Of a stretch of 26,352 bases of DNA, positions 6,011 through 26,054 are shown piece by piece. Made by a program: the position numbers and the translations under genes. Source of the DNA: a bacterium (GTDB lineage Bacteria; JALSQH01); assembly GCA_026985515.1 (NCBI GenBank), contig JALSQH010000228.1:1-26352 (forward strand), written 5' to 3'. The notes under the pieces were generated by a model. It did not search any database. It saw nothing but the letters and a program-made list of their open reading frames with translations, and had not been told where the DNA came from. Numbering within the stretch: the first letter of the stretch is position 1; every line of letters starts with the position of its first letter.

Positions 6011-7924
6011 TCATCTTATCAGGCGATCAATGTGATTCCAGATATAAAGAATCAAATCATACTCATTTCGCATCGCACAGTTGACTATGCCGTTGATTTT
6101 TATCTGATCAAGAGTTACCTCGTCATATGAAGAATCCATTGCAGGCCTGCAGTTATCAGGAAATTTCGTTTCATCAATTTCCAGGAAACCCCACAATGTG
6201 GGTTCCTGCCAGTCAAAATAAAAGTAATAAAGTTCCGAATCATCAGATGTCTCGGGTAACAGGTTATCGGGTGGTAATATTACAAGATTATCTGTGAATG
6301 CATCGGTGGGGTAAAGTACATTGTAAACAAAGGCACTATTCAACTGACCTGTACCGGAGAGAAAAAGAGTAAAGTGACCAGGATCATCAAAAAGGTTATC
6401 CAGTATCAGAAGAGGAGGAGTATTTTCAAATTCTTTTCCATTGACACTTCCCCAGCATGAATTACCAATACAATATTCAAACTCCCAGAGCATAATATAA
6501 TCAAAAGGCTTATCATTAACATCAACATCCATTCTGTAGAAACCAGTTGTTCTCGTTACACCTCCATTGTAAATCCACGCTGGCAAAAGAGATCTGAGCC
6601 CTGTAAAATCATAATTATCAACAACCCGGTAAAGTGCACCAAAATCTGCCAAAACAAAACCATCAGGGAAACTGAAATTTAATTGATCCCCTGTATAGCC
6701 TGTTTCCCTACCTATTGAATTAAGCACATCAGAAAAAACCTTTCCAAGATCGAAATCTGGTTGCGAACTGGTGAAATTTTCAAGCTGTGAGAGGATCTTC
6801 TTTCCTTCACTTTTCAATTCTGCAAGGACCTCTTCAGAAAAGGGATTGATGATGAACCCCTCGTCACTGCTCCCGGCATTTTTGTATGCACTTTTAATTC
6901 CATTAATAGCAATCAAATCTCCCCTGGAGAGTTTTCCATTTCCATCGCTATCAATTACATAAATATACCAGGGTGGATTTTGACCACTTTTTACAAGTCT
7001 CGAGTTCAGCATCTCTATCAGCCCCTCTCCCGCTGCTGCAATCTCTGTTGTACCGGATGGATATGTTACTGCTTTTTCACTTCCAAAAAGGTTGGCAAGC
7101 ATCCCCTCAAAAAATATTCTGCTCTTCCTGTAATATTCTCTGCCATTTTTATCCCATGTGAGGAGATCCCTGTAATTACCCAGTATATGTGCGATGAAGT
7201 GTGGCCATGGTGGAATAAGACCTACATAGGATTCTCCCACCATTCGATTGTTATAATCTCCAATAATATTTCCCCAATCTCCCAGAGTTCCAAGGTCCTG
7301 GGAAGCAAGCACTTCCCACAATCCATAAAGAGCTGAGAAGAGGAATCCTGCCAATCTCAATTCAGGCATCCCCCACCTTCCCTTCAGGGAAATTACCACA
7401 GTAGAAGTATCCAGGGAGCTAAAAAGTTTTCTCAACATATCTCCCTTCCAGACGATATTAACACTTCCCACATCAATGGTGACACTACTGGCAGGGAAAC
7501 TGCTTATGAACTGTATTCTTTTGAAAGCATCATCTATATTTTGAAAAACTTCTCCCATAATTCCTGAAAGGTTTCCCTTAATTCCGGTTGTAGGAAGATC
7601 TGCTTCTGTATTGAAAGCTCCAGGGGCAAACTGGTTACTGCCACCCAGCCCCAGCAATTTTCCCATGGAATTACCTGCATTGTAAATATCTCTTACAAGT
7701 AAATACTCATTTCTTTTTAGCTCAAGATTTTTGTCATTGAATTCCACATCAAGACAGTACTCTTCAGCATCCCTGATCCCGGTAACAGTAACAGGATACT
7801 CCTCAATTGCATTTCTGCATAACTGTTCTTCTGTTGGTTTTTTACTTCTTTCACTTTTGTTATGATGACACGAAACAAGCAGGAGAAGTAACATAATAAA
7901 AGGAAATAAAAGGACTTTTCTCAT
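6011..7924 (-). CDS. Large lipoprotein of unknown function with an EF-hand-like loop
   Basis: I do not recognise the family. The 637-residue protein begins with a lipoprotein signal: basic start, a Leu-rich core and lipobox LVSC, making C19 the lipidated residue, followed by a hydrophilic His/Asn/Lys/Ser-rich tether. Residues 325-336 (DSDGNGKLSRGD) match a calcium-binding EF-hand or dockerin-type loop, with D325, D327, N329, S333 and D336 at ligand positions. Further cysteines occur at 36 and 57 and in a CIGNSC segment in the C-terminal third. The middle is rich in Gly, Leu and aromatic residues without clear membrane spans, so the body should lie in the periplasm or outside the cell, anchored to a membrane. 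AGGAGGGAGG precedes the ATG. The 106- and 130-base gaps on either side suggest a single-gene unit. Confidence 0.8.
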   Translation of the reverse strand: MRKVLLFPFIMLLLLLVSCHHNKSERSKKPTEEQLCRNAIEEYPVTVTGIRDAEEYCLDVEFNDKNLELKRNEYLLVRDIYNAGNSMGKLLGLGGSNQFAPGAFNTEADLPTTGIKGNLSGIMGEVFQNIDDAFKRIQFISSFPASSVTIDVGSVNIVWKGDMLRKLFSSLDTSTVVISLKGRWGMPELRLAGFLFSALYGLWEVLASQDLGTLGDWGNIIGDYNNRMVGESYVGLIPPWPHFIAHILGNYRDLLTWDKNGREYYRKSRIFFEGMLANLFGSEKAVTYPSGTTEIAAAGEGLIEMLNSRLVKSGQNPPWYIYVIDSDGNGKLSRGDLIAINGIKSAYKNAGSSDEGFIINPFSEEVLAELKSEGKKILSQLENFTSSQPDFDLGKVFSDVLNSIGRETGYTGDQLNFSFPDGFVLADFGALYRVVDNYDFTGLRSLLPAWIYNGGVTRTTGFYRMDVDVNDKPFDYIMLWEFEYCIGNSCWGSVNGKEFENTPPLLILDNLFDDPGHFTLFLSGTGQLNSAFVYNVLYPTDAFTDNLVILPPDNLLPETSDDSELYYFYFDWQEPTLWGFLEIDETKFPDNCRPAMDSSYDEVTLDQIKINGIVNCAMRNEYDLILYIWNHIDRLIR

Positions 7925-10329: not shown

Positions 10330-10358
10330 TTGACCTCACCAGTCTCATCTGGTATACT
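10330..10358 (+). promoter_or_regulatory. Sigma70 promoter of the GntR-FAO operon
   Basis: TTGACC (10330-10335) and TATACT (10353-10358) are separated by exactly 17 bases, five of six matches in each box. Transcription should begin near 10365, only about seven bases before the ATG at 10372. The boxes are interleaved with FadR-like half-sites, so the gene is probably self-repressed. Confidence 0.75.
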
Positions 10359-10370
10359 GGTATTACCAGT
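10338..10370. promoter_or_regulatory. FadR/GntR-type operator, two overlapping palindromes
   Basis: ACTGGTATTACCAGT (10356-10370) is a perfect palindrome with 7-base arms around one base, and very close to the E. coli FadR site core ACTGGTCNGACCAGT. Upstream, ACCAG (10338-10342) and CTGGT (10349-10353) form a second inverted repeat spaced by six bases. Together they cover the promoter spacer, the -10 box and the expected start site, the position for repression by the regulator encoded directly downstream. Confidence 0.75.
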
Positions 10371-10371
10371 T

Positions 10372-11082
10372 ATGGGGAAGAAAGAGTTTGAACCTATTGA
10401 GAAGAAGAGGGTTTCTGATCAGATCATAGAAAAGATAAGGGAGAGGATTCTCAATGGTGACTTCAAGCCAGGAGAAAAACTTCCTTCAGAGAGAGAACTT
10501 GCCAGAATTTTCAATGTAACCAGGATACCGATCAGGGAAGCTCTAAAGGCTCTCGAAAAGATGGGGTTTATTGAGATAAATCCCGGTGGTGGTTCCATTG
10601 TGAGAGATATCTTTGGAGAGGGTAACTGGCAGATTCTTCCCTACCTTTTAGCAAAAAGCAATGCTGTGGGAGGAGCTTTTCTGAAGTCTGTTCTGGAATT
10701 CAGAATCCTTGTGGGGGCGGATATGGCCAAGAAAGCAGCCATCAGAAGAGGGAAAGAATTTATAGGAGAACTTCGTCAGGTGATAGAAAAAGAGAAGGAA
10801 ACTGACGATATTTCTCAACTTCAAAAACAGGATCTCAGATTTTTTGAAATTTTAGCTGACGCCTCGGAAAATATTCTATACAGGTTTCTGCTGAACTTCA
10901 TCTCTGATTTCTACATTGAAAACCAGGATATCTTTGAGGACCTGATTGTATCAAAATCCTTCCTCATCGAAACCCACGAGAAAATTCTCAAAGCCATTGA
11001 AAATGGAGACAGTAAAAGTGCCTTTGAAACTGCAGAGGAATATCTGACCAGGGGGATGAAACAACTTTTAAAGGAGAATTAA
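10372..11082 (+). CDS. GntR family transcriptional regulator, FadR-type
   Basis: A 236-residue repressor-type protein. Residues about 8-76 form the GntR winged helix: [13 protein letters not shown], the hallmark [16 protein letters not shown] and a recognition helix in [19 protein letters not shown]. The remainder is an all-helical FCD-like effector domain. Most metal-binding histidines of that domain appear replaced (FFEILA where FH is usual, EEYL where HL is usual), leaving one in THEKILKAI, so a metal-bound carboxylate ligand is less likely than an acyl-type ligand. I prefer ATG 10372; the longer frame from TTG 10330 would start within the -35 box. It heads an operon with the split fatty alcohol oxidase genes, one base before the next ATG. 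Confidence 0.88.
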
Positions 11083-11083
11083 G

Positions 11084-11518
11084 ATGAAAATCTGCAAGAA
11101 AAAGAGAAGATTTGCCAGAGGTTTTGTCTGCAGAACAGTGATTGCAATTTCTGAGGTGGTCATACCTGAAGGAGAAGGAATAGATGTACCACTTGACAAA
11201 GAAGAATTGATTGAAGAGGTGGACACCTTCCTCCTTCTTGTGGGACCACTTAAAAGATTTTTCATAAAACTTCTCCTGTGGTTCATCAACTATCTTCTTC
11301 CTATTCTCTTCTTAAGATTTAAGCCTTTCTCAAGACTTTCATTTGAAACCAGATACCGCATCATGAAGAGAATTCATGATAGCAAAATCTTCTCAATTCG
11401 CGGGATATACATTCTCACATCGATGCTCATTCTTCCCTATTACTACTCCAGAAACAATGTCCTCAACGCAATAGGATACCCTGTCAATAGATTTAAAAGC
11501 AAAAGTGAGGCAGCGTGA
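11084..11518 (+). CDS. Small subunit resembling the N-terminal domain of fatty alcohol oxidase
   Basis: A 144-residue protein with a basic start, an acidic middle and a hydrophobic stretch around residues 58-78. From memory of the family, it resembles the helical region that precedes the flavin domain in plant and fungal long-chain fatty alcohol oxidases and the gluconate dehydrogenase subunit 3 group: an early ISEVVIPEGEG segment, FSRLSFETRYRIMKRI, a hydrophobic helix, and the ending YYYSRNNVLNAIGY. In those eukaryotic proteins this region is fused to the GMC enzyme encoded by the next gene here. AAGGAG lies seven bases before the ATG. The stop overlaps the next ATG (TGATG), so a one-to-one complex is likely. 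It may hold the enzyme to the membrane. Confidence 0.65.
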   Translation: MKICKKKRRFARGFVCRTVIAISEVVIPEGEGIDVPLDKEELIEEVDTFLLLVGPLKRFFIKLLLWFINYLLPILFLRFKPFSRLSFETRYRIMKRIHDSKIFSIRGIYILTSMLILPYYYSRNNVLNAIGYPVNRFKSKSEAA

Positions 11519-13041
11519 TGATTATTGATGGAAGAAAAGTTGAAAAAAATATTAAGATTGACGCAGATGTGGTAATTATTGGATCAGGGGCAGGTGGAGC
11601 ACCTGCCGCATACAGGCTTGCGAAAAATGGGAAAAAAGTAGTGGTTGTAGAAGAGGGTGGCCACTTTACAAAAAATGTATTCAATGGCGATTCTTACGAA
11701 ATGGTCAAACTGATGTACCGTGACGCAGGTTCTGTCCTTACTCTGGGAAACACAGGGATCCTGCTTCCTCTTGGAAGAACTCTTGGAGGGACCACAACAA
11801 TAAATTCTGGAACCATGTTCAGGACCCCCAACGAAGTTATAGATGAGTGGAGAAGGGACTACGGGATTAAAACAATAACTTCCGACCTTCTCAAACCTTA
11901 CTTTGAAGAGGTGGAAGAGATAACCCATACAATGGAAGTTCCCTGGGAACTGATGGGCAGGAATAACCAGTTATTTGCAGAAGGGGCACAGAAACTGGGG
12001 CTTCACGGCTTCCCTCTCAAAAGAAACATGAAGGATTGCAAGGGCAGCGGGGTCTGTCCATTTGGTTGTCCTGAAGATGCGAAACAGGCCATGCATGTTA
12101 CTTACATACCCAGATCAGAACAGTATGGAGCCATTTACTACACATATGCACATGCAGAGAAAATAATTATAAAAAACTCACGCGCCATTGGTATTAAAGG
12201 ACACTTCATGAAGGGGAAATATGGTGTTGAAAAGTCAATCTACACTTTTGAAATAAGAGCCACTGTGGTGATTGTTTCTGCAGGGGCAATCTATACCCCC
12301 GTGATTCTGAAGAGAAACGGCATAGGAAGACATAACAATATGGTGGGTAAAAATCTAAGAATCCATCCCGCAGCAAAAGTAATGGGTTATTTCGACGAAG
12401 AACTCAGCAGCTGGTATGGAATACCCCAGGCCTACTGTGTTGATGAATTTGCAGATGAGTGGATCATCTTTGAGGGATTCTGGTTGCCACCTTCAATGTT
12501 ATCAATTGCTTTACCCTCTTTTGGAAAAGATATTAAAAAAATGATGCTTGACTACAACCATCTGGCCGGCTTTGGAATCATGGTTCATGACTCCTCATCT
12601 GGAATGGTAAAAGTTGCTGGTGAAACTCCACTTCTCTTCTATAACATGAACAAAGAAGACCTTGAAAAATTCAGAAAAGCAATAAGAATAGCCAGTGAAG
12701 TCTACTTTGCAGCGGGAGCAAAAAAAATCTACCCACCCATTTTTTCTCTGGAATCTATCAATTCTCCTTCGCAACTATCAAAAATTGACACCATAAAACT
12801 CAAACCAGACATGCTTGAACTCTCAGCTTTCCATCCCATGGGTACAGCAAGGATGGGTTCCGATCCAAAAGAAGCAGTCGTAAATGAGGAACTTGAAACA
12901 TTTGATGTCAACAACCTCTTCGTAATTGATGCCAGCATATTCCCCACTTCTCTCGGAGTTAATCCACAGGAATCCATTATGGCTTTCTCATCCTATGCAG
13001 CGGACAGAATCATTGCAAGGTGGGATTCACTGAGCAGGTAA
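11518..13041 (+). CDS. GMC-family flavoprotein oxidoreductase, fatty alcohol oxidase-like
   Basis: FAD enzyme of about 507 residues, predicted to oxidise a primary or lipid alcohol. The dinucleotide loop IGSGAGG is at 21-27. A conserved GGTTTINSGTMFRTP segment follows. The cysteine-rich block CKGSGVCPFGCPEDAK near 174 is typical of the long-chain alcohol oxidase and cholesterol oxidase side of the family. The C-terminal GMC domain keeps the catalytic histidine (about 439, in FHPMGTARMG) and a late asparagine (about 482, in GVNPQES). ATG 11518 overlaps the upstream TGA; GTG 11515 is an alternative. The FadR-type control and the small partner gene favour fatty alcohol or another lipid as substrate; electrons could go to a quinone or cytochrome instead of oxygen. 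Its stop abuts the convergent permease stop. Confidence 0.88.
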   Translation: MIIDGRKVEKNIKIDADVVIIGSGAGGAPAAYRLAKNGKKVVVVEEGGHFTKNVFNGDSYEMVKLMYRDAGSVLTLGNTGILLPLGRTLGGTTTINSGTMFRTPNEVIDEWRRDYGIKTITSDLLKPYFEEVEEITHTMEVPWELMGRNNQLFAEGAQKLGLHGFPLKRNMKDCKGSGVCPFGCPEDAKQAMHVTYIPRSEQYGAIYYTYAHAEKIIIKNSRAIGIKGHFMKGKYGVEKSIYTFEIRATVVIVSAGAIYTPVILKRNGIGRHNNMVGKNLRIHPAAKVMGYFDEELSSWYGIPQAYCVDEFADEWIIFEGFWLPPSMLSIALPSFGKDIKKMMLDYNHLAGFGIMVHDSSSGMVKVAGETPLLFYNMNKEDLEKFRKAIRIASEVYFAAGAKKIYPPIFSLESINSPSQLSKIDTIKLKPDMLELSAFHPMGTARMGSDPKEAVVNEELETFDVNNLFVIDASIFPTSLGVNPQESIMAFSSYAADRIIARWDSLSR

Positions 13042-24917: not shown

Positions 24918-26054
24918 CTACACCTCCAGAATATGGGGATTTAGAAGATTGTGAGGGTCAAGCTTTCTTTTCAGCTGAGTGAAGATATTGTAAAAAACGG
25001 GAAACTTTTTCTTAAAATCCTTCACCATTGCCTTAATGTCGTAGTGGTATGTCATAGTTAAATCATCAAATTCCTCTCCATCGAGGGGAATAACACCAGC
25101 TCCCTCCACATCACACCCGGAAATTACGATCCTGTGACCACCAAGTTCCTTTATTCTGCTCCACAGTGCACTGTAAATTTTGAGGGCGGGTGATCTTTCA
25201 AAGTGATCAAGGGCTTTTCTGAAAAGATGGGCACTCTCCTCCTCGGGAATCCTCTTTCCTCTTTTTAAGATTTTTTCAACAAATCTCAATCTGAGTTCAC
25301 TCAACTTCTCATCATACACAGGCAATCTTAACAGGACGAGATTTCCATCAGGATGATCATTGCCAAATAAATCATCAAGAACCGCCTCAGGGACAAGGAG
25401 CAAATGATCAGGGGTGGTCCTTCTGGCAAAAATCTCCTTCACCTCCTCTACCAGATCACTCCATCTGTAATAGGAAAATGCCGCTTCAAGGTAGGAAGGG
25501 GGCATCTGATAAACCCTTGTATTCAGCTGAAGGACTATGGCAAGTGTTTCCCATGAGCCCATGAGAAACCTTCCCACATCGGGACCGGCTGCACTTCTCG
25601 GAGTGAGTACAGTTTTAAATCTACGACCATCGGGGAGCATAAAGTAACCCGAGGTGTAAAAATCTCTACTCCGGGAGAAAAATGTTGAATTCTGCAGGCC
25701 GAATCCAATGGCAAAGTACTCTCTCAATGTTTTTCTTCCCGAAGAAAAGAGGGGATAATGACCCCATGTTAAACCTTCTTTAACAAGTTTCCCCTGAAAA
25801 TCGTCCAGTTCAATGTCAAGAGGTGTGGAAACGAGCATGGATGTTTTTTTAATAACAAAGGGCACATCACTGAGAGAGAGATAAACCCATATTCCTCTAT
25901 CTATACTATCATCAACAGGTATGGTGTAGATGGGGAGATTCATTTCTCTGGCAAGGGATAGTAGAGAGGAGAGTTCTTCTATGCTGCTCACCTCAACTTC
26001 AATTTTTTCACCATCATATGTTAATATTTTAAACTCACTGAGTTTGACATTCAT
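24918..26054 (-). CDS. FAD-binding subunit resembling GlcE of glycolate oxidase
   Basis: A 378-residue protein related to PCMH/VAO-type FAD proteins. The N-terminal third has a worn FAD-binding pattern: [20 protein letters not shown], then [20 protein letters not shown] and [18 protein letters not shown], matching the entry helix, the dG motif and the Gly-rich loop of GlcE-like proteins. The C-terminus [14 protein letters not shown] is the standard end of this family. The canonical PxGgGt loop of full FAD oxidases is hard to see (IYTIPVDDS there), so it may bind FAD weakly or serve as a partner of the upstream GlcD-like subunit. Its ATG overlaps the GlcD-like stop by four bases. Confidence 0.75.

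Follow-up and report, generated by a model that had tools for sequence, protein, structure and literature searches.

In the analysed 26,352-nt stretch of DNA (the window), an ORF of 144 codons on the forward strand is followed by a GMC oxidoreductase ORF, which ends at position 13041 (Table 1). The two genes are joined by a TGATG junction, in which the TGA of the small gene (11516-11518) and the ATG of the GMC gene (11518-11520) share one base. GTG 11515 is an alternative start of the GMC gene, and the residues of the GMC protein are numbered from this GTG throughout. Shine-Dalgarno-like sequences were read from the DNA for both the small gene (AAGGAG, 11071-11076) and the GMC gene (GAGG, 11507-11510). 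The larger protein was firmly assigned to the GMC oxidoreductases by its matches to PF00732 (GMC_oxred_N; E 2e-48, 165.5 bits versus the cut-off of 23) and PF05199 (GMC_oxred_C; E 4e-23, 82.9 bits versus the cut-off of 24.6), and HPMGTARMG occupies its residues 440-448. An earlier sequence-only reading had described the locus as a 144-residue protein coupled by TGATG to a GMC protein with this motif, and the description was confirmed on the DNA and with Pfam.

The small gene is preceded by the gene of a GntR/FCD-family regulator. The regulator stop codon (11080-11082) is separated from the small-gene ATG by one base, so the three genes run together and form a putative operon with the regulator first. 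The likely start of the regulator is ATG 10372; TTG 10330, which the ORF tool gave as the start, falls on the -35-like hexamer of a -35/-10-like pair (10330-10358) located 5' of the gene. The -10-like box is overlapped by a perfect 15-bp palindrome, ACTGGTATTACCAGT, with the form TGGTnnnACCA, which is that of FadR-family operators. As TGGTnnnACCA alone is expected approximately 0.55 times per window, the support for an operator comes from the position and the longer palindrome. A single perfect copy of ACTGGTATTACCAGT was found in the 2.36-Mb draft genome, and copies with two mismatches were no commoner across the genome than those of the reversed-pattern control, which favours the modest reading of a local autoregulator. 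Judged from its position and symmetry, ACTGGTATTACCAGT is a probable autoregulatory operator of the GntR regulator. Counting the window, GntR-family regulators were observed near the GMC gene at five loci, which belong to different phyla.

Downstream of the GMC gene lies a convergent metal ABC-transporter cluster. No gene of cytochrome c or another electron carrier was detected next to the pair at the locus, and a multihaem cytochrome c subunit is absent from the operon, which is bordered by the regulator upstream and the convergent ABC cluster downstream. Two further proteins of the window, 378 aa at 24918-26054 and 637 aa at 6011-7924, both on the reverse strand, had no Pfam match.

Table 1. 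Coordinates of the features in the window and of the recurring neighbours in related loci (L numbers).
Feature	Position	Strand	Basis or remark
GntR/FCD-family regulator	10372..11082	+	PF00392 E 2.7e-21; PF07729 FCD E 2.1e-10
Perfect 15-bp palindrome ACTGGTATTACCAGT	10356..10370	n/a	overlaps -10-like box
Small subunit, 144 aa, all-helical, Gluconate_2-dh3-like, without Tat signal	11084..11518	+	PF13618 matches of relatives, hhalign, AlphaFold2
GMC-family FAD catalytic subunit, 507 aa from ATG	11518..13041	+	PF00732, PF05199
Cx5Cx3C CKGSGVCPFGC, C175/C181/C185, probable [3Fe-4S] ligands	12037..12069	+	alignment to 6a2u_B
GntR-family regulators near GMC gene	window 10330-11082; L074:2265-2987; L076:4702-5506(-); L101:1333-2038; L106:3034-3720		
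Tocopherol-cyclase-like proteins	L030:5682-6656; L031:3307-4276; L032:7080-8049; L033:5514-6279; L034:2595-3614; L076:139-1243(-); L106:1943-2977		

The catalytic residues H440 and N483 of the GMC protein were invariant in 90 of 90 relatives. The same was determined for the Cx5Cx3C triad within CKGSGVCPFGCPEDAK (residues 175-190), and the triad, H440 and N483 had all been invariant in a preceding set of ten diverse relatives. In the PDB profile search, the top match of the GMC protein was the alpha subunit of Burkholderia cepacia FAD-glucose dehydrogenase (BcGDH; E 1.6e-41), followed by the large subunit of fructose dehydrogenase (E 8e-35). The triad of the window aligns with CCGNNNCMPIC of the Burkholderia FAD-glucose dehydrogenase (6a2u_B) with the same spacing and position. 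In the FAD-glucose dehydrogenase, a 3Fe-4S cluster at the surface is held by Cys212, Cys218 and Cys222 and relays electrons from FAD onwards to the following subunit (PMC6719666). An Fe-S cluster is probably carried by C175, C181 and C185 of the GMC protein as well, and the alignment of the triad with [3Fe-4S] ligands points to an electron-exporting Fe-S dehydrogenase rather than a simple oxidase. The triad is the strongest mechanistic clue at the locus and was absent from the expectations of the sequence-only reading. It favours that reading's proposal of a dehydrogenase not using O2, which is probably right, whereas the lipid substrate and the membrane attachment proposed along with it are unproven. 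Some members of the small-domain family (L132, L150 and L153) miss the full cysteine triad. In two of these, both fused proteins, Cx5Cx3C is replaced by CxxCxxxC (DSCGYCGMGC in L132 and LGCGFCNWGC in L150), and these proteins possibly represent an oxidase-like branch.

The small protein alone gave nothing significant in searches against Pfam, NCBIfam and PADLOC, and no match to PF13618 (Gluconate_2-dh3) was obtained at E 10. PF13618 was matched by 20 of its 62 relatives (best E 3.8e-11). In hhalign, the profile of 23 split small proteins was aligned to that of eight classical Tat-bearing Gluconate_2-dh3 proteins with 95.6% probability (E 1.2e-8, 126 columns). The two groups are bridged by L113 and L114, retrieved with the Pfam model, which have a twin-arginine leader, an adjoining Cx5Cx3C GMC gene and the shared C-terminal signature of the type FxxLSPExRxxYxxxWExS...YY...IGY; YYYSRNNVLNAIGY forms residues 118-131 of the window protein. 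On these alignments, the small protein is most likely related to the small subunits of dehydrogenases of the gluconate and FAD-glucose type but lacks their Tat signal, and a relation to gluconate dehydrogenase subunit 3, for which a profile check had been proposed, is supported. A Tat leader (RR motif with a hydrophobic region) was found neither in the small protein of the window nor in its 61 aligned relatives; consequently, these proteins cannot serve in export in the way of hitchhiker subunits.

The AlphaFold2 model of the small protein, built with 62 sequences, was all-helical (mean pLDDT 92.2), with predicted helices at residues 14-26, 39-52, 55-75, 87-98 and 103-121. Helix 55-75 is hydrophobic according to hydropathy. 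A transmembrane helix or membrane anchor is not claimed at this site, since the helix sits inside the folded domain and its hydrophobicity is much weaker in many relatives. According to a published survey, the hydrophobic tail of gluconate dehydrogenase subunits is part of the gluconate_2-dh3 fold (PMC10924467). PDB profile searches with the small-protein alignments resulted in no match (A1) and in one chance match with an E of 1.2 (A3), and no credible match of the model to BcGDH gamma or any other chain was obtained with Foldseek and VIA-align; a fold shared with BcGDH gamma is thereby neither shown nor excluded.

To survey the pairing, GTDB genomes were scanned with the GMC alignment and the small domain was sought with an iterated profile. 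Of the 80 loci retrieved, 34 were split, with the small gene directly upstream, 40 were fused and six were without a small domain; four of the six end at contig borders, and L060 and L106 apparently lack the partner. The small-domain relative was thus upstream of or fused to the GMC gene in 74 of 80 independently retrieved loci, and its profile had no match elsewhere in the 80 loci. The pairing is far beyond chance, and the sequence-only reading was right about it. Among the 34 split pairs, counted by eye, 16 have overlapping genes (1 or 4 nt), and in ten others the genes are at most 7 nt apart. The closest relative, G001 (GMC identity 79%), has the same TGATG overlap, and 34 other loci are split; on these grounds, a split caused by a frameshift or a sequencing error was rejected. 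In a second set of 30 GMC loci from whole genomes, collected with the Pfam GMC model and including the window copy and G001, the triad and the small domain occurred together in 22, neither in three, the triad only in one, and a small-domain match only in four. Viral contigs gave one distant GMC match only, and the distant GMC matches on plasmids did not cover the small domain in any case.

The fused relatives (for instance L066, L076, L055 and L108) are mostly from Myxococcota, and also from Thermodesulfobacteriota, Chloroflexota and Spirochaetota. They have the small helical domain and the GMC part in one chain of about 630-690 aa, with the same two modules, order and cysteine triad as the window pair, and differ from it in being one polypeptide. 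On the GMC tree, the split/fused label changed eight times, at least five changes being forced by well-supported branches; as the root is arbitrary, the tree gives no direction for the changes. Both states are common and interconvert, which indicates that the two coupled genes are one functional unit. The two-gene state noted at first is therefore real, but it is not peculiar to the genome of the window, since the split is one of two common bacterial states. The distance matrices of the small and large parts correlated with r = 0.81 in split and r = 0.86 in fused loci, values reached by 0 of 2000 permutations, although the correlation partly reflects shared ancestry.

A co-structure of the two proteins had been suggested as a check, and the fused relative L066 (653 aa) served as the substitute. 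Its predicted fold, obtained with 26 sequences, had a mean pLDDT of 89.8 and a pTM of 0.91. Such a pTM for a protein of 150 + 500 residues suggests that the N-terminal small domain would have a settled placement on the GMC part, the interface being judged from the pTM of this one fused relative. The top structural match of the L066 catalytic part was fructose dehydrogenase (Z 43.1, rmsd 2.9, 455 residues).

Among characterised enzymes, the Fe-S FAD-glucose and fructose dehydrogenases come closest to the pair in both sequence and structure. B. cepacia FAD-glucose dehydrogenase gamma-alpha (6A2U, 8GRJ) and Gluconobacter fructose dehydrogenase (7W2J, 8JEJ) share with the window pair the GMC subunit, the Cx5Cx3C ligands and a separate small helical subunit. 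In contrast to these, the small subunit of the window has no Tat signal, is closer to Gluconate_2-dh3 and has no cytochrome c gene nearby; the sequence identity is about 20%. Gluconate 2-dehydrogenase subunit 3 (PF13618) shares the profile homology of the small protein and the place beside a GMC gene, and several of its partners have the Cys motif. The classical members have twin-arginine leaders, whereas the window protein is leaderless and below Pfam detection. The pair is a variant of the FAD-glucose/gluconate dehydrogenase design and not a categorically new system.

A second, divergent pair of small and GMC genes is encoded in the same genome (L017, C82:5723-7679; GMC identity 35%), and contig ends truncate further GMC genes (C234, C124 and probably C107). 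The L017 pair has no regulator gene beside it and adjoins long uncharacterised or phosphoesterase-like genes. Cytochrome bd oxidase is encoded in the assembly and no heme-copper oxidase was found there, which in a draft genome is no proof of absence. This oxidase content is consistent with quinone-linked, low-oxygen metabolism and argues mildly against a peroxide-forming role of the pair. Among the genomes searched, one relative belongs to the same family and the next nearest only to the same taxonomic domain, so the genome comes from a sparsely sampled lineage.

In Bacteroidota, the GMC gene repeatedly has the gene of a tocopherol-cyclase-like protein as its neighbour (PF14249; E 7.4e-7 in L034, with a weaker match in L030), and relatives of this protein were found beside the GMC gene also in one genome each from the Leptospiraceae, the Desulfatibacillaceae and the actinobacteria. 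All these proteins except that of L034 carry the motif YESFF.RANHP..P.AFWIRYT or a similar version of it. The protein is a possible lipid-related partner. Four members of the 11-locus neighbour cluster (L063, L081, L087 and L095) were rejected as low-complexity, noncoding-looking ORFs without the family motif, and the largest neighbour cluster (14 loci), composed of long opposite-strand ORFs overlapping the GMC gene, was discarded as noncoding.

Taken as a whole, the locus is best explained, with reasonable though not high probability, by a two-subunit Fe-S GMC alcohol dehydrogenase. The large subunit, with FAD and the His440/Asn483 active site, would oxidise an alcohol, plausibly a long-chain or lipid alcohol, and the electrons would leave via the surface [3Fe-4S] cluster on Cys175, Cys181 and Cys185. 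The small helical subunit would pack on the large one, where its probable role is to fold, stabilise or cap the Fe-S face and to help the complex dock to the electron acceptor or the membrane. The enzyme would act in the cytoplasm or on the inner face of the membrane, with the quinone pool as the probable destination of its electrons. Its control may lie with the GntR regulator, whose gene opens the operon. We infer the presence of the cluster, the interface geometry, the acceptor and the regulation in this scheme.

The pair could alternatively be a genuine fatty alcohol oxidase divided over two genes, with O2 as the acceptor, a long-chain alcohol as the substrate and the small protein as the membrane-binding part, but this is considered unlikely. 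The single chains of the fused relatives are about as long as long-chain alcohol oxidases, and the hydrophobic helix at residues 55-75 would suit membrane binding; however, the Cx5Cx3C triad is conserved as in Fe-S dehydrogenases, the closest solved relatives are dehydrogenases, and of the two oxidase families searched the host has bd only. The membrane location of the eukaryotic long-chain alcohol oxidases, GMC flavoproteins that reside in microsomes or membranes (PMC4513209, PMC9299179), would also agree with an oxidase. There is similarly little probability that the pair is a sugar or polyol dehydrogenase of the FAD-glucose, gluconate or fructose type which happens to lack export. The Tat signal and the nearby cytochrome subunit gene, both typical of such enzymes (PMC6719666), are missing, and the lipid-associated tocopherol-cyclase-like neighbour recurs in related loci, even though the nearest solved relatives act on sugars and the small subunit is homologous to gluconate dehydrogenase subunit 3. 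It is very improbable that the small protein acts only during assembly, as a chaperone that inserts FAD or Fe-S, instead of being a stable subunit, even though BcGDH gamma is needed for the functional expression of the BcGDH catalytic subunit (PMC6719666): the small domain is permanently fused to the enzyme in half of the surveyed loci (40 of 80), the model of the whole fused L066 is confident, and BcGDH gamma itself is a stable subunit in the crystal.

The relation of the pair to the fatty alcohol oxidases is a lead. Eukaryotic fatty alcohol oxidases have the N-terminal region and the GMC part in one chain, and in the plant sequences the N-terminal region probably has an AIGY-like end and a CxxCxxxC block is probably present. 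The long-chain alcohol oxidases of EC 1.1.3.20 (Arabidopsis FAO3, Candida FAO) are single chains, whereas the window has two ORFs; their layout of an N-terminal helical region followed by GMC is found in the fused bacterial relatives and not in the window pair. The Picea abies alcohol oxidase 8s2y was tried as a plant representative and rejected, as its core is placed among hydroxynitrile-lyase-like GMC proteins and its N-terminus had no match to the small-domain profile. A search of the open literature gave no paper in which fatty alcohol oxidases are connected with Gluconate_2-dh3, though such a paper may exist. We tentatively propose, at somewhat less than even probability, that the eukaryotic fatty alcohol oxidases descend by fusion from a bacterial two-subunit Fe-S GMC dehydrogenase. 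Their N-terminal region would then be a relic of the Gluconate_2-dh3 hitchhiker, the window pair the unfused cytoplasmic Fe-S form, and the fused proteins with altered cysteines (L132, DSCGYCGMGC) the intermediates.

The pair is real, conserved and co-inherited, and is most likely a cytoplasmic two-subunit GMC dehydrogenase containing Fe-S. It is a widespread, under-described bacterial enzyme type and not a one-off oddity, and it joins three things described separately: the Tat-carried small subunits of Fe-S sugar dehydrogenases, the cytoplasmic GMC genes that lie uncharacterised in numerous bacterial phyla and the single-chain layout ascribed to the eukaryotic fatty alcohol oxidases. The small partner escapes Pfam at this locus, and expression screens in which the GMC gene alone is cloned would miss it. 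If the proposed explanation is true, many proteins annotated as "GMC family oxidoreductase" would be Fe-S dehydrogenases with an overlooked partner, and it could be tested where fatty alcohol oxidases come from and how they handle electrons. Should the relation to these oxidases hold, Fe-S dehydrogenases would be the ancestors from which they arose by fusion and a change of the cysteines.
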